From assembly GCA_017937305.1 (NCBI GenBank), contig JAGBDV010000002.1:1-64000 (forward strand): 64,000 bases of DNA, read 5' to 3'. How positions within the stretch are numbered: the stretch's first letter is position 1; each line of letters opens with the position of its first letter. The position numbers were made by a program, and so were the translations under genes. This stretch comes from Bacilli bacterium (lineage in GTDB: Bacteria > Bacillota_I > Bacilli_A > ML615J-28 > CAG-313). Below are positions 141 through 41,096 of the stretch, piece after piece. The notes beneath the pieces are model-generated. The model ran no database searches. It saw only the letters and a program-made list of their open reading frames with translations, and had not been told where the DNA came from.

Positions 141-2228
141 TTAGTCTAATACTTTAATATGTGGATAGTCTCTTTTAATTTTCTTAATTGATTGATCTTT
201 ATCAAAGATAATTTGAACAAACATATCGTCTAGTGCAACAACTTTACCATATCCGAAATATTTATGGTTAACTTTTGCGCCTACACGCATTTCTCCACCA
301 GCTGATGCTTCTTTTTCTTTTTGAAGTTCTACACTTTCTTTTACATCTTCTGCTGTTAAATATTCACTTAAGAATCTAGAAATTCTATTTCTTACAACTC
401 TACCATAAATTAATCTACTTTGAGCACAGCTTAAGTAAATCTTTGATTTTGCACGTGTAAATGCAACATATGCAACACGACGTTCTTCTTCAATTTCAAC
501 ATCTTCTCTAACACTTGGGAAAATACCTTCTTCAAGTGCAACAACAAATACTATTTCAAATTCTAATCCTTTTACTGAGTGAATTGTTGAAAGTGTAATT
601 GCATCTGCTCTTGCGTCATCTTCAAATGATTGATCAAGCATGATATCATCAATACCAATTCTTACCTTATCTTTTTGTGATAAACCAACATCATTGATAT
701 TTTCATCAATATTATAAAGTACTGATTTAAATTCATTGATATTATCTACTCTATTAGTATTATTTAACATATCTTCTTCTTTAAGAAGTTCTAAATATCC
801 TGTTTTTTCTACTAAATAATCAAAAAATTCTACAAGTGGCATTTCTTCAATTACTTTTGTAAAATCAACAATCATTTCTTTAAATTCTAATAATGCCTTA
901 TTTTTAGAAGAAGGGTTTTCACGATAAATTTCTTCAATTGCTTCAAATAATGAAATATTTTTTTCTTCCATTAATGTCACAACTTTTTGAATTGTTTTAT
1001 CACCAATACCTCTTGGTTGTAAATTAATAATACGTTTAAAGTGACTTATTCTATTTGGATCACATATAAATCTAAAATATGAAATAATATCTTTTACTTC
1101 TTTACGTTTTAAATATGAGAAACCACCATATATATTATATGGCATTCTTTCTTCTAAAAAAGCCATTTCAAAGTTTCTTGATATTGCACTATTACGGTAT
1201 AATACTGCAATATCAGAATATTTATATCCATCATGTCTTACAAGATGTGCTATTTCATTAACAACATATCTTACTTCTGCTTCATAATAATATGCTTCTT
1301 GAACGATTACATCATTAATTGAACCTTCAACATCACTATATAATTGTTTTGGTTCTCTAATTTGATTATTTTTAATTACTGCGTTTGCACCTTTTAAAAT
1401 ACTATTATGAGAACGATAGTTCTTAAGAAGTTTAACGACTTTCGCATTCGGATAATCTTTAGTAAAGTTTAACATATTATCAATAGTAGCACCTCTAAAA
1501 CTATAGATACTTTGATCATCATCACCTACAACAAATAAGTTTTCTAAAGATGATGCTAACATTTTAATAATATTATATTGAACTTTATTCGTGTCTTGGA
1601 ATTCATCAACTAATATATATTGGTAAAGTCTTTGATAATATTCTAATACATCTGGACATTTCTTAAATAATTCTTCTGTTTTAAGTAATAAATCATCAAA
1701 GTCTAGTAAGTTATTTTTCTTTAAATATGCCTCATATTCAGTATAGATTGGCATTACAATACTATTTAATTGACTAATACCATTTTTAAAATCACCGATC
1801 ATTTTAGCAGCAAGTTTAGTAGAGAAAGCTTTTTTATCAACGTCTTGTTGCTTAAAGATATCACTAAGAATCTTTTGAACATCTTCATCATCAATAATTT
1901 CAAAGTTTCTTTCATACTCTAGTCTATCAATGAATCTTCTTAATATTTTTACACATAAAGAGTGAATAGTTGAAATATTTAAATATTTAGCATCTTCATC
2001 AAGAATTGAAATAAGACGTTCTTTCATTTCATTTGTTGCTTTTTTAGTAAATGTAATAGCTAAAATATTATAAGGTTTTATATTACATTCTGCAACCATA
2101 TAGGCAATACGAGCAGTAAGTGTTTTAGTCTTACCAGTACCTGCTCCTGCAAATACCATTACAGGACCATTGATAGTTTCTACTGCTTCTAATTGTTCTT
2201 TATTTAAGATATCTAAAATTGATGCCAT
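141..2228 (-). CDS. pcrA: ATP-dependent DNA helicase PcrA/UvrD
   Basis: Superfamily 1A 3'-5' DNA helicase of nucleotide-excision repair and replication-fork maintenance. The 695-residue protein has a Walker A GAGTGKT at residues 28-34, a Walker B VDEFQDTN near 210, motif III GDDDQSIYSFRG just after, and the late motifs including the VAFTRAKS motif VI near 590. A C-terminal tail of about 60 residues with a Tudor-like KVNHKYFGYGKV core matches the PcrA RNA-polymerase-binding domain. It is slightly shorter than B. subtilis PcrA (about 740). It is the last gene of the groES operon, starting three bases after the glnS stop with no clear Shine-Dalgarno, so it probably depends on translational coupling. 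In Firmicutes pcrA often sits with ligA; ligA is absent here. Confidence 0.95.
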   Translation of the reverse strand: MASILDILNKEQLEAVETINGPVMVFAGAGTGKTKTLTARIAYMVAECNIKPYNILAITFTKKATNEMKERLISILDEDAKYLNISTIHSLCVKILRRFIDRLEYERNFEIIDDEDVQKILSDIFKQQDVDKKAFSTKLAAKMIGDFKNGISQLNSIVMPIYTEYEAYLKKNNLLDFDDLLLKTEELFKKCPDVLEYYQRLYQYILVDEFQDTNKVQYNIIKMLASSLENLFVVGDDDQSIYSFRGATIDNMLNFTKDYPNAKVVKLLKNYRSHNSILKGANAVIKNNQIREPKQLYSDVEGSINDVIVQEAYYYEAEVRYVVNEIAHLVRHDGYKYSDIAVLYRNSAISRNFEMAFLEERMPYNIYGGFSYLKRKEVKDIISYFRFICDPNRISHFKRIINLQPRGIGDKTIQKVVTLMEEKNISLFEAIEEIYRENPSSKNKALLEFKEMIVDFTKVIEEMPLVEFFDYLVEKTGYLELLKEEDMLNNTNRVDNINEFKSVLYNIDENINDVGLSQKDKVRIGIDDIMLDQSFEDDARADAITLSTIHSVKGLEFEIVFVVALEEGIFPSVREDVEIEEERRVAYVAFTRAKSKIYLSCAQSRLIYGRVVRNRISRFLSEYLTAEDVKESVELQKEKEASAGGEMRVGAKVNHKYFGYGKVVALDDMFVQIIFDKDQSIKKIKRDYPHIKVLD

Positions 2229-2231
2229 ATT

Positions 2232-3875
2232 TTACACATTAAATGATGATTTTAAACCAACAATACGGTTAAAAATTAAATCATTTCCTTTCGATTCTTT
2301 ATCTACAGTATAATATCCATTACGAATAAATTGGAACTTATCTTCAGGTAAAACATCTTTTAAGTAATTTTCAACAAAACCGCATTTAACAATCCATGAA
2401 TCTGGATTAATTTGTTCTTTAAAGTTTTCAGTTGATACTTTTTCTTCTTTCATTAAGAAATCATATAAATTAAATTTTGCAGGTACAGCTGTAGTAGCTT
2501 CTACATAGTGAATTGTACCATTTGGTTTTCTTTCATTAAATCCTGATCCTGATTTAGTAGCTGGATCATATGTACAATGGATTTCAATAATTTCGCCATT
2601 TTCATCTTTAATAACTTCTTCACATTTAATAAAATATGCATGCATTAGACGAACTTCAATTCCTTTTGATAAACGTTTCCATTTCTTGTTTGGTTTTTCT
2701 TCAAGGAAATCTTCTCTTTCAATATATAAGTATTTTCCAAATGCCATTTTATGTGAACCAAGTTCTTCATTTTCAGTATTATTTACTGCATCAACATATT
2801 CTAATTTATCTTCAGGGTAGTTAGTAATTACTACTTTTAATGGATCAATAATGGCCATTGGTCTAATTGTCTTAAGTTTTAAATCTTCTCTTAAGAAATA
2901 TTCAAGCATACCATAATCTACAGTTGAATTTATTTTTGAAAGACCTGTTGCCATAATAAATTCTTTAATAGCATTAGGTGTAAAACCTCTTCTTCTTAAG
3001 CCTACTAGAGTTGGCATTCTTGGATCATCATACCCTGTTACGATATTATCATCAACTAGTTGTTTTAAATATCTTTTACTCATTAGAGTATGAGTAATAT
3101 TTAATCTTCCCCATTCAATTTGGCGAGGTTTTGCAGCAACATCACAGTTATTAATTACCCAGTCATATAAAGGACGATGGTCTTCAAATTCAATACTACA
3201 AAGTGAATGTGTAATACCTTCAATAGCGTCTTGTAATGGATGTGCAAAGTCATACATTGGATAAATACACCATTTATTTCCAGTTTGATGATGTTCTACA
3301 TGCATAATACGATAGATAACAGGATCTCTCATATTCATATTAGGGCTTGCCATATCAATTTTTGCACGAAGTGTTTTTTCACCATCTTTATATTTGCCTT
3401 CACGCATTTCTGCAAATAGTTTTAAATTTTCTTCTACACTTCTATTTCGATATGGAGAGTTCTTTCCTGGTGTAACTACATCTCCACGATAAGCTGCCAT
3501 TTCTTCATGAGTTAAATCACAAACAAAAGCTAAACCTTTTTTAATTAATAAAACTGCTTTTTCATATGTTTCTTCAAAATAACTAGAACCATAATTTACA
3601 GTTTTAGGAGTGTACCCTAACCATTTAATATCATTAATAATAGCTTCAACATATTCTGTTCCTTCTTTTGAAGGATTAGTATCATCTAAACGAAGATTAG
3701 TTGCACCACCAAAATATTCTGATAATTCAAAGTTATTAATAATAGCACGTGCATGACCAATATGTAAATATGCATTAGGTTCTGGTGGAAATCTCGTTAG
3801 AATATGGTCTACAACACCATTTTCTAATTCATTCTTCATAATTGTTTTAATGAAGTTTGAATTTTCGTTCATCAT
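2232..3875 (-). CDS. glnS: Glutaminyl-tRNA synthetase
   Basis: Class I aminoacyl-tRNA synthetase that charges tRNA-Gln directly in the cytoplasm. The 547-residue length fits GlnRS. The class I HIGH motif is at residues 38-41 within a [14 protein letters not shown] block that is diagnostic for GlnRS/GluRS, and the KMSKS counterpart is MSKRYL near residue 265. The C-terminal half holds the anticodon-binding beta barrels. Most Firmicutes make Gln-tRNA through GatCAB, so a stand-alone GlnRS is a lineage marker (family knowledge; many GlnRS genes are thought to be transferred). A Shine-Dalgarno (ATAGGAGA) sits inside the end of the upstream B3/B4 gene, leaving almost no intergenic space. Confidence 0.95.
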
Positions 3876-8043: not shown

Positions 8044-8946
8044 TTATATTAAAAACTCATTGCATATTTTTTCTAAAACTAATATTGCTTCTGAGTATGT
8101 AATATTATCATATATTATTTCACTTGTTACTTCCTTATAATCTTTTTCAAAAATATTAAGTGCGACAATTTCCTTTAATTTTTTTCCAACATCAAAACCA
8201 TCTTGAGCGCTTATGCATCTTTTATTTAATTTTCTTTCTTCTTTTACTTTATTAAATAAATCTTTTAATGTTTCATCTATATTTATTAATGGATAAATCT
8301 TGTATAAATCATAAATATGTCTAGAACTTCTAGTTAAGTCTTGTTTTAATGAACTATCACATAATGCAAATATTTTATCTATAAAAGTTCTTTCTAACGA
8401 TTGTACTTTGATTTTAAATGGTTCTACATCAAATTTTTCAATTAGATCTCTACGATCAATTTCCTCTAAATATTCATATATAAAACACTTAGTTTCTTTT
8501 TCCAATATTGGGTAAGTTTTAGATATATAGGTTGTTTCAACCAATATTTTTTGGAGAATAACTTTATTGATATATTCTGGATTATAAGAAATTTCGTATC
8601 TATTAAAATCTCGTCTGCTACGAATATTATCTATATTTAAAATTTGTAGATTTAATTTTTCACAAGAATCGACAATCGTTTTTTTTAAACCCCTTTTATA
8701 TTTTGGAGTTAAATAATTTACTTCTATTGATAAATCAATATCTTCAGAAAACCTATTAATAATTCCATAACATTTTGATAATGATGTTCCTCCCTTGAAT
8801 ACAACATGAGGAAAAGTTAGATTAATTTCTTTTAACAGTACAAATACAAAATAATCTTTTTCAACATAAGTTTCATTTATTTTATAATAATCACTTGTAT
8901 TTTTTATTAAATCATAAAATTCTCTTTTTAAATTATGTAAATTCAT
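8044..8946 (-). CDS. AbiEii-family nucleotidyltransferase (toxin)
   Basis: DNA polymerase beta-like nucleotidyltransferase of the AbiEii/AbiGii toxin family. About 300 residues, with the nucleotide-binding KGGTSLSK at 51-58 and the metal-binding SEDIDLS at 67-73, the two defining motifs. Further conserved features are VQSLERTFIDKIFAL and RHIYDLYKI in the second half. Characterised members modify nucleic acids, commonly by adding nucleotides to tRNA 3' ends, and stop growth during phage infection (family knowledge; this member's substrate is unknown). The frame is open from a GTG 12 bases upstream, but GAGG before the ATG at 8946 supports this start. It overlaps the upstream antitoxin by 14 bases. 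Confidence 0.85.
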   Translation of the reverse strand: MNLHNLKREFYDLIKNTSDYYKINETYVEKDYFVFVLLKEINLTFPHVVFKGGTSLSKCYGIINRFSEDIDLSIEVNYLTPKYKRGLKKTIVDSCEKLNLQILNIDNIRSRRDFNRYEISYNPEYINKVILQKILVETTYISKTYPILEKETKCFIYEYLEEIDRRDLIEKFDVEPFKIKVQSLERTFIDKIFALCDSSLKQDLTRSSRHIYDLYKIYPLINIDETLKDLFNKVKEERKLNKRCISAQDGFDVGKKLKEIVALNIFEKDYKEVTSEIIYDNITYSEAILVLEKICNEFLI

Positions 8947-9559
8947 AAAATACCTCACTTACTATTAAATTTTTTGTTGTCTTAGCAGGAAAAGAATTTA
9001 ATAGTTTAGTGACCTGTATTTTACTGATTTTATTTTCTGATATATATTTTTTGACTTCTTTTTGACACTTAGAATTTTTTAAATAATCAGTAATGCTTAT
9101 TCGTGTAAAAAATTCTAAAATCGTATATGCCTTATAATTATCATTGGTAATATGTATTCTAGATTTTTTTAATAAAATATCTCTACCTCTAATATTAATT
9201 AAACGTGATTTTCTCGATTCCTTATTTGTTATTACTTCAATTAGTGCTGGTATCTGTGTACTTAAGGAAAAATTTACCTCCATTACTTTAAGTCCAAAAA
9301 TTCCAAATCTTTCATTATTATTGTATATATATTTCTTTTCAATTACATCATCTAATGACAGAATCGAATCACCAACAATTGTCTGTCTAACCAAATAATA
9401 AATCCCTTGATCATATCTTTTTAAAACACTAAGTTTTAAAGCTTCATTAATTAACTCAAAAACTTTAGATTTTGAATAATCATTCATAATATTATATATT
9501 TCATTAATAAAAATAGGCTCATCATAATTAAATTTTTCTTTTAAGCGTTCTATTAACAT
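8933..9559 (-). CDS. AbiEi-like antitoxin / transcriptional regulator
   Basis: 208 residues directly upstream of and overlapping the AbiEii-type gene, the standard antitoxin-toxin order of AbiE type IV systems. The N-terminal 60 residues form a winged-helix-like region (YSKSKVFELINEALKLSVLKRYDQGIYY), consistent with DNA binding and autoregulation. The rest resembles the AbiEi C-terminal antitoxin region only loosely. In known systems the antitoxin does not bind the toxin but counteracts it and represses the operon (family knowledge). A good Shine-Dalgarno, AAGGAGG, precedes the ATG and a consensus promoter lies 47 bases upstream. No function outside this pair is implied by context. Confidence 0.7.
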   Translation of the reverse strand: MLIERLKEKFNYDEPIFINEIYNIMNDYSKSKVFELINEALKLSVLKRYDQGIYYLVRQTIVGDSILSLDDVIEKKYIYNNNERFGIFGLKVMEVNFSLSTQIPALIEVITNKESRKSRLINIRGRDILLKKSRIHITNDNYKAYTILEFFTRISITDYLKNSKCQKEVKKYISENKISKIQVTKLLNSFPAKTTKNLIVSEVFYEFT

Positions 9560-9605: not shown

Positions 9606-9634
9606 ATTATATACCTTTTTTACAAATTTGTCAA
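9606..9634 (-). promoter_or_regulatory. Strong promoter of the AbiE-type operon
   Basis: Perfect TTGACA, a 17-base spacer and TATAAT on the minus strand, just upstream of the antitoxin. It lies downstream of the structured RNA's terminator, so the toxin-antitoxin pair can be transcribed independently of that RNA. Confidence 0.85.
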
Positions 9635-9689
9635 CACAAATTTCAAATTAAATTTTTTTAATTAAATCATAGTACCACCTCCTTAAAAA

Positions 9690-9884
9690 ACAAAAAAAGA
9701 TATTAACAATATAAAAGATTCTATCTCTAAAATAGAAATAGTTAATTCTTTTATAATGTCAATATCCGCGTAACCTCTAAAGCGCAATTCTCAAGTTACC
9801 TAAACCTTAGGAGTAGCAAGAATTTCAATATGATTATTACTTCTTTAGAGTAAATAATAACCTTTAAAACTCATAATTCTTACA
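9690..9884 (-). ncRNA. Structured RNA element, copy 1 (unclassified)
   Basis: A ~195-nt element nearly repeated at 14133-14328. Reading the minus strand from about 9884: GTAAGAATT pairs with a later AATTCTTGC and encloses a hairpin whose loop contains CTCTAAAG (9843-9850); then a CCTAA/TTAGG hairpin; then a GCG/CGC hairpin whose loop contains CTTTAGAG (9775-9782), fully complementary to the first loop; then a 20-base-pair-arm hairpin (9699-9766) followed by a T tract, i.e. an intrinsic terminator. After the T tract comes AAGGAGG and an ATG followed by one codon and a stop. It does not match T-box (no UGGN bulge), SAM, purine, TPP or c-di-GMP riboswitch cores by eye. Confidence 0.75.
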
Positions 9885-9889
9885 AGAAT

Positions 9890-9918
9890 ATTATAACATA
9901 ATACATAATATAAATCAA
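9890..9918 (-). promoter_or_regulatory. Promoter of structured RNA copy 1
   Basis: TTGATT, 17-base spacer, TATAAT on the minus strand. The same hexamers and spacing occur before copy 2, so the promoter is part of the conserved unit. Transcription would start near 9883. Confidence 0.85.
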
Positions 9919-10027
9919 TGTTTTTCTTGCATAATTTCAAAATATTTTTCTACAAGATTTAGTCATATTTTGCATATCATTAAAAACTTATTTTAATATT
10001 TGATATAATATTATTGAGGTGAAAATT

Positions 10028-10576
10028 ATGAAAATACTTATGACATGCTTTGAATCTTTTGGTGGATTTACTACTAATTCTACTGAACTTGCACTAAGTA
10101 AACTTAACTATTTAGATATTGATAGAATTAATTTACCAGTTTCATATCCTGATGCTTATGTTGTCTTAAAACAATTAATGAAAGAATGTGACTTTATTAT
10201 TATGCTAGGTATGGCTGCATCAAGAGATAAAATATCTATTGAAGAACGTGCTAAAAATTTACTTGAGTTTAAAATTCCTGATAATAATCGTCAAATAATT
10301 ACAAATAGACTAATTAGTGATGAAGGATCAGAATACATATATAGTAAAGTAGACATTGATAATTTAGTTAACGTTTTAAATAAAGATTTTGATGTCTATA
10401 AATCAAGTGATGCAGGAACATATATTTGCAATTACTTATATTATAAAGTACTTCAAACAATTGATGTTCCAAGTATCTTTGTTCATATACCAAATTACCA
10501 AACAAATGAAGAATTTGAAAAATTACATTCATTTTTAATTACATTAATAAATTATATTAAAGGAGAAAACAAATGA
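10028..10576 (+). CDS. pcp: Pyroglutamyl-peptidase I (peptidase family C15)
   Basis: Cytoplasmic cysteine peptidase that removes N-terminal pyroglutamate from peptides. 182 residues, slightly short for the family (about 200-215). The N-terminal MTCFESFGGFTTN matches the VTGFEPFGGxxxNPS start. The triad is visible: Glu73 in IEERA, Cys134 in DAGTYICNY and His153 in FVHIPNY. A GTG nine bases upstream also opens the frame, but GAGGTG at 10016-10021 is better placed as the ribosome site for this ATG. Its stop overlaps the ATG of the endonuclease lipoprotein (ATGA), so the two are translated as a unit, perhaps for scavenging peptides and nucleic acids (inference). Confidence 0.88.
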   Translation: MKILMTCFESFGGFTTNSTELALSKLNYLDIDRINLPVSYPDAYVVLKQLMKECDFIIMLGMAASRDKISIEERAKNLLEFKIPDNNRQIITNRLISDEGSEYIYSKVDIDNLVNVLNKDFDVYKSSDAGTYICNYLYYKVLQTIDVPSIFVHIPNYQTNEEFEKLHSFLITLINYIKGENK

Positions 10577-13152
10577 GAAAATTATTGTTTCTAATTACAC
10601 TTTTATGTTTATTATTTATTTCAGGATGTGAAGTTCCCCCTACTGAAAGCTATATATCAAACATTAAAGAAAGCAAGTACGTTGTTACATGGGATGAAGA
10701 CTTATCAAGTACATTATATTATATAAATATAACATCAGATGTAAGTAGCTCTGTTACATTTACTACAACTGATACATCATATGACTTGTCTTCATATATC
10801 GATGGATTACTAATTAAAAATAATGAATTTACATTAACTGTAAAAGTTAAATCAAATAGTACAACTTCTGTTTATAAAGAAGAAATAACAATTACTGTAG
10901 AAAAAGAACTTCCTACTCTTCCTATAGCCCCTATTCCAACAAATGTAAAAATTGAAAATAACATTCTTACATGGGATAATATGAATAATGTTAACACATA
11001 TGAAGTAACCATAACATTAAATGACTTAGTTGATTCTTACACCGTTTCAACAAATTCCTTTGATTTTACATCATATTTATCAATTAGCGGAACTTATTAT
11101 TTTCAAGTTAAATCACTTATTTCTGATAGTTATTCAAATGACTCAGAATACTGCAAAGTAGTAGCTTATGAATATGAAGAAATAGTAATTGAAAAAGAAA
11201 TCTTTAACTATAATTTCTTAACTATGGAATCACTTCCAACTGGTTTTTCTGCAACAAGTTTTGCAAAATACGCTGATAAATCCGTAAAGTTTAATTCCAG
11301 TGGTTTTTATCTTACAACTAATTCATTTAAAGCATTAAAAAGCTTTTCTGTTACAGCAACAATTAAAGGTAACGGATGTAGTGGTGATGCAACAATCACA
11401 TTCTATGGTTTAGATGATTCTAACAAAATTATTGAAACCTATCCTATTACTTATGCAATCACTAACTCAAAACATGATATTACAGCTGAATTTAATAATA
11501 CTTCTATTACAAAAATAAAATTAGAATATACTACTAAAGCAACAGGTAATTTTGGTTTATATAACCTTTCAGCAAATCACGACGAAGAAAGCGATAGAAT
11601 TACATCAATTAGTTTAGAAGAATATCAAACTTCATACTTACAAAATCAACCATTTGATTATTCAGGTAACCTTATTGTTAATTATAAATCGGGTGCTGTT
11701 AAAAAACATAAACTAAATGATGTCAAAGATCAATTAACAATTTCTCAATTTAGTACAACTTCTAAAGGAACTTATACATCTGTTCTTTCATATGAAGGAT
11801 TTAAAGCAAACTTTACATACAACGTTAAATATGATTATGATGCTTATTACACATACGCTGATGATATTAAAATATATACTTTTGATTTAAATGATACCGC
11901 AGACAATTTATTTGTAATGTTAAGCATTACACAAGATGAAGAAACTATCAATGTCTTATTTGATTATAATAAGAAAACAACTATAGATATAATTAATAAT
12001 TTATTACTTGAAATATCTTCATATACATCTAATAAAGTAGATTATGCCTATTCAGTTAATAATGCTAACTTATTCACTGACTCAAAACCATTAAATAATA
12101 CTACTCAATATAACTTTGCACCAGATGTATATGTAACAGTAAATAACAATGAGTTTAACATTGATGTTTATGGATTTAATTATTACTTCACTTTAGATAC
12201 AATCACAAAAACAAATAAAGTAGATATTTTACACGTAAATAGTGATATTGATATTGACACATTAAAAGTAGTTGATCCAACTAATGTAATCCTTCAAGAA
12301 GGAACAATTAATGATTTAGTTGAAAATGGTATGGCAGTATATTCATACAATAATCAAATTTATCAATATGCACCTACATTAAGTAATTCATTTTTCTATA
12401 CATTTACTAAAAATACATATACTATTGATGGTGATAATCTATTAGAGCTTAGTTCTAATACAGCATGGAGTGATGCAGAAACTAACGGATTACATCACAA
12501 AGATTTAAACAACTATGTATATAGAATTAGCTATTATGGAGATATATCTAATTTATATGGTAATGAATTGTTAAATTCAATAAAAAATACAATCACAAAA
12601 ACTCATACAACTTTAGTAAACTATGCATATGCTAAAACAGCATACAAGCTAACAGATGCAGATCCATTAAAACCAGGAAATATTATTACATTCTATTCAA
12701 ATACTTCAATTAATGGAACATGGGAAAATGGTATTACTTGGAATAGAGAACACGTTTGGCCTAAATCATTATCAGGTGGAATATATAATACACTTGATGA
12801 CAGTGATAAAAATGCAGGTACTGACCTGCATCATATTAGACCAGCTCTTACTTCAATTAACTCTTCACGTGGTAATAAAGCATATGGAACTATCACTAAT
12901 GAACAAACATTCTATCCGGGTGATGAATTTATTGGCGATACTGCAAGAATTTTATTCTATCTATCAGTAAGATATGATATGAGTATTACAGGACTTAAAG
13001 TATGTAATGATATATCTTTGCTTCTTGAATGGAATAACATAGATCAAGTAGACAACTTAGAAAGAAATAGAAATGCATCTGTTCAAGAAATTCAAGGAAA
13101 CTTTAATCCATTTATTGATAATCCTTGGATTGCAGAAAGAATATGGCAATAA
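10573..13152 (+). CDS. Secreted lipoprotein with endonuclease I (EndA/NucM-type) domain
   Basis: 859-residue surface lipoprotein. The signal peptide ends in a lipobox FISGC with Cys at residue 19. Next come two fibronectin-III-like modules (residues ~30-200), a beta-sandwich region, and a bacterial Ig-like segment (residues ~340-415). The C-terminal 230 residues form an endonuclease I domain with the His-Me-finger signature NREHVWPKS, then DLHHIRPALTSINSSRGNK. These enzymes cut DNA and RNA non-specifically outside the cell, usually for nutrient scavenging. Shine-Dalgarno AAAGGAG precedes the ATG, which overlaps pcp. A palindromic terminator follows. Confidence 0.88.
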   Translation: MRKLLFLITLLCLLFISGCEVPPTESYISNIKESKYVVTWDEDLSSTLYYINITSDVSSSVTFTTTDTSYDLSSYIDGLLIKNNEFTLTVKVKSNSTTSVYKEEITITVEKELPTLPIAPIPTNVKIENNILTWDNMNNVNTYEVTITLNDLVDSYTVSTNSFDFTSYLSISGTYYFQVKSLISDSYSNDSEYCKVVAYEYEEIVIEKEIFNYNFLTMESLPTGFSATSFAKYADKSVKFNSSGFYLTTNSFKALKSFSVTATIKGNGCSGDATITFYGLDDSNKIIETYPITYAITNSKHDITAEFNNTSITKIKLEYTTKATGNFGLYNLSANHDEESDRITSISLEEYQTSYLQNQPFDYSGNLIVNYKSGAVKKHKLNDVKDQLTISQFSTTSKGTYTSVLSYEGFKANFTYNVKYDYDAYYTYADDIKIYTFDLNDTADNLFVMLSITQDEETINVLFDYNKKTTIDIINNLLLEISSYTSNKVDYAYSVNNANLFTDSKPLNNTTQYNFAPDVYVTVNNNEFNIDVYGFNYYFTLDTITKTNKVDILHVNSDIDIDTLKVVDPTNVILQEGTINDLVENGMAVYSYNNQIYQYAPTLSNSFFYTFTKNTYTIDGDNLLELSSNTAWSDAETNGLHHKDLNNYVYRISYYGDISNLYGNELLNSIKNTITKTHTTLVNYAYAKTAYKLTDADPLKPGNIITFYSNTSINGTWENGITWNREHVWPKSLSGGIYNTLDDSDKNAGTDLHHIRPALTSINSSRGNKAYGTITNEQTFYPGDEFIGDTARILFYLSVRYDMSITGLKVCNDISLLLEWNNIDQVDNLERNRNASVQEIQGNFNPFIDNPWIAERIWQ

Positions 13153-13154
13153 CT

Positions 13155-13188
13155 AAAAAAGATTAGGAATAATCCTAATCTTTTTTTT
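13155..13188. terminator. Bidirectional terminator between endonuclease and rhuM-like genes
   Basis: AAAAAAGATTAGGA paired with TCCTAATCTTTTTT around an ATAA loop. It works on both strands and serves the convergent genes, reaching into the stop codon of the minus-strand gene. Confidence 0.85.
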
Positions 13189-14050
13189 AGATATTACATA
13201 GTAATGGATTAATTAAATCGCTATTAGATTCACTAATAGAAAATATTTTTTTCCCTAAATCTTTTATTGAATGCCCAATATGATAAAGTTTTTCTCTATC
13301 AATTATTATATATCTATCATGAACTTTTTTTATATATCTAACTGACAATGAGCTGTATTGCTTATTAAAAGCATGTATATCACTATCGATTAATTTTGAA
13401 GTAGATTTATTTGTATAAATTATAACTTTAACATTTTTCTTTTTTACAACTAATCGATCAAGAATAGTTCTATCTAAATAATTATCTATTATAATAATTT
13501 CTTTAGTTGCACTTTCGAAAATTTTTTGTATTATTGCATATGCATCATAAAACTGTCCATTATAAAAAATTTTATTAAATCCGTATTCTTTATCTAAGAC
13601 TTTATCTTCTAATTTTAGTAGTCTATTATTTATGCTAATCACTTCATTTTTTAATTCGATATAGTTTTCATTAGATACTACTACTCTTCTAGGGTTAATA
13701 ACATAACCTCTTAAAAGATACCCTTTTAAAATTTGATTTGCCCAAATTCTAAACTTTACACCTACTATCGATTTGACTCTATATCCAACAGAAATTATTA
13801 CATCTAAAGAATACATACAAACTAGTTGTTTAACACCATCAACACGCATTTTTTGCGTGTTGTTATCATAATTTAATTCTTCGTCTTTAAAGATATTATT
13901 TATATGTTTTCTAATTGTTTTACAGTCTTTTCTAAAAAGACATGCCATTTGATTCGCTGACATCCATATTGTTTCTTCATATGGACTTACAGTAATATCT
14001 AGTTCTAATTCTCCATCAATAAATTTTACTAAATCATATTCTTGTTCCAT
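13187..14050 (-). CDS. RhuM-family protein with C-terminal phospholipase D-like domain
   Basis: 287 residues. Residues ~25-120 match the RhuM family (ETIWMSANQMACLF, KHINNIFKDEEL, YSLDVIISVGYRVKS, FRIWANQILKGYLLRGYVIN). After a short coiled linker, residues ~165-280 look like a single phospholipase D-type domain with HDRYIIID, an HxR-x4-D variant of HxK-x4-D, followed by GHSIKDLGKK. One such motif per chain implies a dimeric active site (family knowledge). RhuM proteins are common in defence islands and near restriction systems, and their biochemical role is unclear. Regulation may involve structured RNA copy 2 just upstream. Whether the domain is a nuclease or only binds nucleic acid cannot be told from sequence. 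Confidence 0.75.
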   Translation of the reverse strand: MEQEYDLVKFIDGELELDITVSPYEETIWMSANQMACLFRKDCKTIRKHINNIFKDEELNYDNNTQKMRVDGVKQLVCMYSLDVIISVGYRVKSIVGVKFRIWANQILKGYLLRGYVINPRRVVVSNENYIELKNEVISINNRLLKLEDKVLDKEYGFNKIFYNGQFYDAYAIIQKIFESATKEIIIIDNYLDRTILDRLVVKKKNVKVIIYTNKSTSKLIDSDIHAFNKQYSSLSVRYIKKVHDRYIIIDREKLYHIGHSIKDLGKKIFSISESNSDLINPLLCNI

Positions 14051-14132
14051 TTTTATACCCCTTTTATTTTAATATTTTAAATTTTGAATAACACATTTAT
14101 TATATTACTTATATATCCCTCCTTTATAAAAT

Positions 14133-14328
14133 TAAAAAACAGATACTAACAATATAAAAGATTCTACATCTAAAATAGAAATAGATAATTCTTTTATAAT
14201 GTCAATATCCGCGAAACCTCTAAAGCGCATTTCTCAAGTTACCTGTAACCCCAGGAGTAGTAAGAATTTTAATATGCTAACTACTTCTTTAGAGTAAGTA
14301 ATTGGCTTTAAATCTTAGAATTCTTACA
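14133..14328 (-). ncRNA. Structured RNA element, copy 2 (unclassified)
   Basis: Second copy of the element at 9690-9884, in the same orientation. On the minus strand from about 14328: GTAAGAATT pairs perfectly with AATTCTTAC. The enclosed hairpin loop has CTCTAAAG (14287-14294) and the later GCG/CGC hairpin loop has CTTTAGAG (14218-14225). CCTG/CAGG replaces copy 1's CCTA/TAGG, so pairing is kept by compensatory change. The terminator hairpin has arms at 14142-14161 and 14190-14209 followed by a T-rich run, then AAAGGAGG. The rhuM-like gene starts 83 bases further on. No obvious separate promoter for that gene is seen, so read-through control is possible. Confidence 0.75.
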
Positions 14329-14333
14329 TTTAT

Positions 14334-14362
14334 ATTATAACATTATTTTACATAAAAATCAA
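14334..14362 (-). promoter_or_regulatory. Promoter of structured RNA copy 2
   Basis: TTGATT, 17-base spacer, TATAAT on the minus strand, identical in hexamers and spacing to the promoter of copy 1. The spacer sequences differ, which suggests selection on the promoter rather than very recent duplication. Confidence 0.85.
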
Positions 14363-40980: not shown

Positions 40981-41096
40981 AAGATCTTATCTTAAGTCCC
41001 CCCACCCACAAGTTGCAAAAAGTTTAAGGCTGCTTCAATCACGATCTGACCTGGTTCGCTATGAAACCTTGGATGAAGGTACTTAAAATAAGATCC
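40981..41096 (-). ncRNA. ffs: Signal recognition particle RNA, small bacterial type
   Basis: About 116 nt. The conserved Ffh-binding core reads CCAGGTCAGATCG and GAAGCAGCC on the minus strand, the signature of domain IV. The ends pair over a long helix (GGATCTTATTTTAAGT with ACTTAAGATAAGATCT). The 5' end at GGATC is exactly seven bases after the -10 box. The apical loop reads UGAU closed by a G-U pair, where GGAA or another GNRA loop is usual. A T-rich run follows the 3' end. Confidence 0.93.

Follow-up and report, generated by a model that had tools for sequence, protein, structure and literature searches.

The window, i.e. the whole 64-kb stretch of DNA that was analyzed, contains two copies of one structured RNA, both on the minus strand (Table 1). 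The copies could be aligned across the whole element and were 85% identical over about 238 nt in a search of the host's own genome (E 2e-70). Both folded far better than shuffled sequences (z -5.2), none of 200 shuffles being as good. The sequence-only reading of this region had described a duplicated structured RNA with a shared promoter, a terminator and a trailing AAGGAGG, which is confirmed by these data. Since a simple terminator scan did not report the two long hairpins at the end of the copies, the terminator assignment relies on fold, U-run and cross-copy pairing. No tRNA or tmRNA was detected within the 64-kb window, and its sole Rfam match was a bacterial small SRP RNA (RF00169) at 40990-41085 (minus strand).

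Copy 1 precedes an AbiE operon. Its assignment as a toxin-antitoxin system, already made by the sequence-only reading, was supported by Pfam for AbiEii and by PADLOC for both AbiEi and AbiEii. The same reading had placed the RNA directly upstream of the operon, which holds true for the order of the elements but not for their distance: the first AbiE start codon lies 132 nt beyond the U-run, and the gap harbors a promoter of its own. A second promoter-like TTGACA/TATAAT sequence between leader and AbiE was also found in genomes G003 and G004. As this promoter follows the terminator, the leader cannot be the only control of AbiE. The gene behind copy 2 had been interpreted as a RhuM-phospholipase D fusion. 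While the RhuM part was recovered (PF13310, PDC-S05), Pfam, PHROGs, NCBIfam and PDB searches called no PLD domain in 13187-14050, and what the protein carries is a PLD-like motif (HDRYIIID...LYHIGHSIKDLGKK). Promoter, structured RNA, intrinsic terminator-like hairpin and a gene in the same orientation succeed one another as in an attenuator, in copy 1 with the second promoter intervening.

Table 1. Features of the two leader copies and their cargo genes in the window, and positions of the class II leaders
Feature	Position	Strand	Evidence
Copy 1, structured RNA	9692..9889	-	
Copy 1, extent from promoter (9918-9890) to U-run end (9692)	9692..9918	-	
Promoter copy 1, TTGATT-17-TATAAT, TG before -10 (extended -10)	9890..9918	-	promoter scan and sequence
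RNA core copy 1: P1, P2, P3, P4, first strand of terminator hairpin	9748..9885	-	covariance model R1, 129.9 bits, E 3.1e-20
Loop L2 copy 1, CUCUAAAG, kisses L4	9843..9850	-	pairing across copies
Loop L4 copy 1, CUUUAGAG, kisses L2	9775..9782	-	pairing across copies
Putative terminator copy 1, long hairpin and U-run	9692..9767	-	fold, U-run, cross-copy pairing
Shine-Dalgarno copy 1, AAGGAGG, then tiny ORF ATG ATT TAA	9678..9684	-	sequence
Second promoter, TTGACA-17-TATAAT (12/12), between copy 1 and AbiEi	9606..9634	-	promoter scan
AbiEi, 208 aa, cargo of copy 1	8933..9559	-	PADLOC AbiEi E 6.9e-45
AbiEii nucleotidyltransferase toxin, 304 aa	8044..8958	-	PF08843 E 1.2e-29; PADLOC AbiEii E 9.7e-79
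Copy 2, structured RNA	14134..14333	-	
Copy 2, extent from promoter (14362-14334) to U-run end (14134)	14134..14362	-	
Promoter copy 2, TTGATT-17-TATAAT, TG before -10 (extended -10)	14334..14362	-	promoter scan
RNA core copy 2	14191..14329	-	covariance model R1, 129.6 bits, E 3.4e-20
Loop L2 copy 2, CUCUAAAG	14287..14294	-	pairing across copies
Loop L4 copy 2, CUUUAGAG	14218..14225	-	pairing across copies
Putative terminator copy 2, long hairpin and U-run	14134..14210	-	fold, U-run, cross-copy pairing
Shine-Dalgarno copy 2, AAAGGAGGG	14117..14125	-	sequence
RhuM-family protein, PLD-like C-terminal motif, 287 aa, cargo of copy 2	13187..14050	-	PF13310 E 5.8e-17; PADLOC PDC-S05 E 9e-82
Class II leader L195	G004:C3:200845	+	
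Class II leader L197	G000:C8:84069	-	
Class II leader L196	G003:C18:33470	-	
Class II leader L198	G004:C7:273130	+	

In the folded leader, P1 and the P2 that it encloses are separated by a conserved asymmetric internal loop (GNUUUAAA opposite AUA). The short P3 hairpin has the pattern CCN/NGG and P4 is a GCG/CGC stem; an 8-bp kissing helix (L2-L4) forms between the P2 and P4 loops. An alignment of 31 copies comprised 36 pairs with 95.4% of the cells paired. In 22 of the 36 pairs both sides had changed; the covariation score was 0.354, compared to 0.164 for shuffled and at most 0.114 for slid alignments. The kissing helix was paired in 98.7% of the cells. It switched from CUCUAAAG/CUUUAGAG to GUCUUUUG/CAAAAGAC in one clade, where four pairs were changed on both sides, and in one distant copy the G-C pair at its end was replaced by A-U. 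The clade switch probably represents one evolutionary episode, so that counts of double changes overstate the number of independent events. Compensatory pairs were detected in the terminator hairpin as well, whose first strand was slightly more conserved in the more distant copies (94%) than the second one (89%). Some of the covarying pairs are G-U when read on the transcribed strand, which is typical of RNA. The structure of the leader RNA is strongly supported by these comparisons, and the conserved, covarying fold is aptamer-like, as in a riboswitch.

A systematic column search for alternative pairing yielded only weak helices of 4 to 5 bp, and no alternative helix of at least five pairs that involves the terminator's first strand was conserved in 80% of the copies. 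Due to this result, a textbook antiterminator is not evident and there is no switching mechanism to point to. Mutually exclusive antiterminator and terminator helices are present in many transcriptional riboswitches, albeit not in all. Two other candidates were discarded. For an alternative helix P4' (GUAAC/GUUAC), proposed by single-sequence folds, 82% of the cells paired and the covariation was not clearly above that of shuffles. A leader peptide inside the RNA (copy 1 could encode MSFKGYYLL) would lack its start codon in most copies.

By DNA search, seven copies were identified in the host genome, three of which are cut off at contig starts, and more were present in related genomes. Covariance models, the first built from 12 and the second from 31 copies, revealed 33 copies in eight of 43 genomes of the host's order, with up to 11 copies per genome. 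Other genomes of the class, in each of which the best eight candidates were scored by covariance model, gave no copy, nor did class and phylum genomes searched for the kissing-loop pattern, or viral contigs (IMG/VR), phages and plasmids. The single Bacilli locus obtained by a RhuM protein search of genome contigs (L104) had no leader either. The leader family is narrow and so far confined to one order. Neither copy matched an Rfam family at the gathering score, and nothing credible emerged at E values up to 10. The family was also not found in the literature searched or in several catalogues of structured RNAs, a 2017 catalogue of 224 motifs lying outside this search. It is apparently a new family of real, structured RNAs.

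Of these 33 copies, 26 had a readable cargo, three had no recognizable cargo, three were located at contig edges and one was a weak partial match. The downstream gene belonged in 25 of 26 readable cases to one of five families, RhuM (eight, some with a Fic or PLD-like end), the YhcG/DUF1016 nuclease (five), AbiE (four), SLFN_AlbA_2 with a RecG-type ATPase C-terminus (four) or TnpB (four including one pseudogene; NCBIfam guided_TnpB, E 4e-41), some of these 25 cargos being orthologous between genomes of one genus and hence not all independent. For YhcG (PDC-S02) and RhuM (PDC-S05, PDC-S23), the PADLOC status is that of candidate defence systems, the defence role itself being predicted. Genome G004 harbors about 17 genes of the five families (counted from family searches plus two AbiE loci), which is approximately 1% of its estimated 1,800 genes, yet these families provide nine of its nine readable cargos. 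Thus, the association is not due to chance. Many YhcG, RhuM, AlbA_2 and TnpB genes of the same genomes have no leader. The interpretation given by the sequence-only reading is supported in part: the predicted homologues with covariation (33 copies, 22 pairs with double changes), the lack of an Rfam match and an enrichment upstream of defence or toxin genes were all borne out.

The 26th readable cargo consists of two proteins of 178 and 418 aa in genome G036 (L049, 2201-3996, plus strand), to which no family could be assigned. The pair had no match in Pfam, PADLOC, NCBIfam or PHROGs, and the 418-aa protein no PDB chain; weak partial relatives of the latter occur in two unannotated gut phage records. 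By association, the pair is a candidate defence system. The three copies without cargo (two in G004, one in G010) look decayed, as the one on G004 C6 has lost the family's terminator and the one on G010 C3 is truncated, while cargo-bearing copies keep the structure. Within the cargo genes, the RhuM-Fic proteins at L091, L086 and L093 have near-identical C-terminal Fic parts, and the N-terminal stretch of L091 differs, which is, judging by this pattern, mosaic recombination within the gene.

All readable cargo genes are oriented in the same way as the RNA. For roughly half of the copies measured, the distance from U-run to start codon is 21-38 nt, and a Shine-Dalgarno sequence lies in between. 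In the other half, the distance to the gene is 60-300 nt, in some cases with a tiny ORF (ATG TAA, ATG TGA, ATG GGG TGA or ATG ATT TAA) following the Shine-Dalgarno sequence and the cargo further on. Tiny ORFs were seen after the terminator at 9664-9684 of the window and also at L053, L086, L039, L045 and L037. This layout looks as if the leader had been joined, together with a start codon, to a new gene. The tiny ORFs are candidates for relics of such fusions, or else for functional minimal ORFs.

The modular character of the leader is also apparent from its phylogeny. In the RNA tree, copies grouped by lineage and not by cargo, and at least 12 cargo changes were counted on 25 tips. At the birA site, the RNA is followed by AbiE in G003 and G004, but by RhuM in the window, where a promoter-RNA-AbiE unit (about 9925-8037) lies 4.4 kb beyond this site, in front of groES. 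Some copies reside in TnpB elements with sharp ends (left ...TTTATTCATAAGGAAAGTTCATATTTTT, right ...AAAAATCATTTTGTTCT), just inside the left end. TnpB insertion sequences carrying the same leader bear out the earlier suggestion that the RNA is linked to mobile cargo. In G007, the same left end was detected upstream of an AlbA_2 gene, and it resembles sequence 5' of other cargos. Because the leader lies inside the left end and this end also precedes AlbA_2, TnpB elements may be one of the vehicles by which the leader was disseminated within the host's family. The f2 genomes contain the leader, and no TnpB gene was detected in them. As to the insertion sites, a 1.7-kb TnpB element (L040, sense 1946-3649; L042; L047) is inserted right behind terminator-like U-runs of its neighbours; at L047, tnpB is decayed.

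Some members of the same gene families that lack this RNA are preceded by other leaders. A second, unrelated class (class II) of approximately 80 nt, pseudoknot-like, has four occurrences in the genus, where it stands in front of AlbA_2, YhcG and ToxN/AbiQ genes, the ToxN/AbiQ toxin being preceded by it in two genomes. In its sequence (AAACAAACACnCAnAGUCUUAUUCAUAC...GUUUGUU...GUAUGAnUAGGACUUUUUU), pairing of AACAAAC with GUUUGUU would create a pseudoknot involving the terminator stem. Furthermore, G023 and G036 contain YhcG and RhuM genes (L132, L135, L142, L146, L156) that are located behind a promoter, a leader peptide of 15-20 codons and a terminator. The short ORFs end at or in the terminator hairpin, which is followed by a U-run and a Shine-Dalgarno sequence, and these leaders look like leader-peptide attenuators of defence genes. 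Given that other attenuator-like leaders occur on the same gene families, attenuation is the most natural reading of the main RNA. A 6S RNA gene (RF00013, 54.8 bits; L123, 647-836, minus strand) adjoins a YhcG gene in the host genome.

From promoter, fold, terminator-like hairpin, position of the Shine-Dalgarno sequence and gene association, all of them read from the sequence, we infer termination, attenuation and regulation. With a probability of roughly 60%, the leader acts in cis as a transcription attenuator common to unrelated, costly defence and mobile genes organized as single- or two-gene cassettes. Transcription would begin at the leader's own promoter, and the nascent RNA would fold into P1/P2, P3 and P4, held together by the L2-L4 kissing helix. 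Most transcripts would stop at the long terminator hairpin abutting P4, yielding an RNA of approximately 190-200 nt, and the downstream gene would be made on read-through only. A costly nuclease, toxin or transposase would therefore be kept low by default. A fold this compact and conserved points to regulated, and not merely low, read-through, with a ligand, a protein or RNA polymerase state as the regulator. Besides a ligand-sensing switch, which is possible, control could be exerted by a protein, through modification of RNA polymerase, or through P4 stacking on the terminator. Several observations weigh against the attenuator reading: the lack of a conserved antiterminator pairing, the second promoter of the AbiE copies, the leaderless members of the same families and the cargo genes that begin 60-300 nt from the RNA. 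The put and EAR elements act through RNA polymerase modification. Quite tentatively, the leader could be a regulatory RNA, either an orphan riboswitch or an antitermination element acting on RNA polymerase, which senses a signal linked to infection or stress and co-releases AbiE, RhuM, YhcG, AlbA_2 and TnpB as a regulon.

Other functions of the leader were considered. It is conceivable that the terminated RNA is an antitoxin or RNP partner neutralizing or guiding the adjacent protein, as RCd22 does with AbiF and ToxI with ToxN. The cargos include toxin-like genes, the class II leader of the same genus precedes ToxN/AbiQ, and the RCd22 locus has the same order of promoter, structured ncRNA, terminator and toxin gene (PMC12373285). 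However, near-identical RNAs that group by lineage stand before at least five unrelated protein families, which makes recognition of a specific protein unlikely, AbiE is already equipped with an antitoxin that is a protein, and TnpB as a rule works with an RNA derived from its own 3' end; on balance, this function is improbable. Slightly less probable still is that the leader is selfish DNA, a repeat spreading either within a TnpB element of the IS200/IS605 type or by homology as a module, with a fold that reflects transposition or recombination. The TnpB elements with defined ends, the left end before AlbA_2 in G007 and the similar sequence 5' of other cargos would agree with such an origin, as would the birA site, where the cargo varies and the RNA stays, and the differing places of the promoter-RNA-AbiE unit. 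On the other hand, the constant orientation and often tight spacing to the cargo, the covariation with G-U pairs on the transcribed strand, the f2 genomes with a leader but no TnpB gene found and the location of the element ends outside the RNA are at odds with it.

IS elements shield their transposase genes against outside transcription, and a constitutive leader that limits read-through into the cargo as a passive terminator or insulator, with no sensing, would fit both this habit and the failure to find a conserved antiterminator. Against this speaks the leader's own promoter, and neither a conserved P1-P4 core nor kissing loops would be required in a simple terminator. We regard a passive role as rather remote. 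The least credible alternative, with hardly any weight, is a stand-alone small RNA acting in trans whose promoter region is merely shared with the cargo. It would account for the promoter, the own terminator and the three copies without recognizable cargo, but just these copies look decayed and the structure is kept where a cargo is present.

The inducing signal of the proposed attenuator would be directly testable with a single reporter. Research on defence genes has mostly dealt with single systems, and little is settled about how their cost is held down between infections. If the attenuator reading is true, one structured leader serves at least five unrelated families, which would mean a common RNA-level control of defence. 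The findings suggest that unrelated defence weapons are placed under one common RNA safety catch, and a signal-dependent release of the cargo genes, which the sequence-only reading had considered, would be an attractive possibility. The leader could also serve as a tag for new defence genes, since genes behind it would be candidate defence systems if they are indeed released in parallel.

The closest known relative in layout is the abiF RNA/RCd22 (RF03085), which has a like order of elements from promoter via RNA and terminator to the gene. In C. difficile, the AbiF/RCd22 locus comprises a SigA promoter, a structured ncRNA, a Rho-independent terminator, an RBS and a phage-defence toxin gene (PMC12373285). 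Premature termination limits the toxin, the RNA also binds AbiF, and the authors call RCd22 riboswitch-like (PMC12373285). The leader differs from RCd22 in sequence and fold, and it is associated with at least five unrelated protein families while RCd22 serves only one. The RF03085 covariance model did not match either copy at the gathering score or at E up to 10, and none of the tested cargos (AbiE, RhuM, YhcG, AlbA_2, TnpB, unassigned) was an Abi_2 (AbiD/F) gene. Type III toxin-antitoxin systems (ToxI of ToxIN, AbiQ) also have an RNA and a terminator between promoter and defence gene, and ToxI uses pseudoknots. Among the leader's cargos there was no ToxN/AbiQ-family protein, ToxN having been encountered only behind the class II leader, and no ToxI-like tandem repeats of approximately 36 nt were seen in the aligned leader copies. 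With orphan riboswitches and riboswitch attenuators the leader shares the conserved internal loop, the kissing loops, the intrinsic terminator and the RBS right before the gene. By contrast to riboswitches, its cargos have no common metabolic theme and no mutually exclusive antiterminator is evident. Finally, some copies reside inside TnpB elements, which recalls the TnpB/omegaRNA of IS200/IS605 elements. The omegaRNA is located at the right end of the element, though, while the leader lies 5' of tnpB at the left end and also accompanies cargo other than TnpB.
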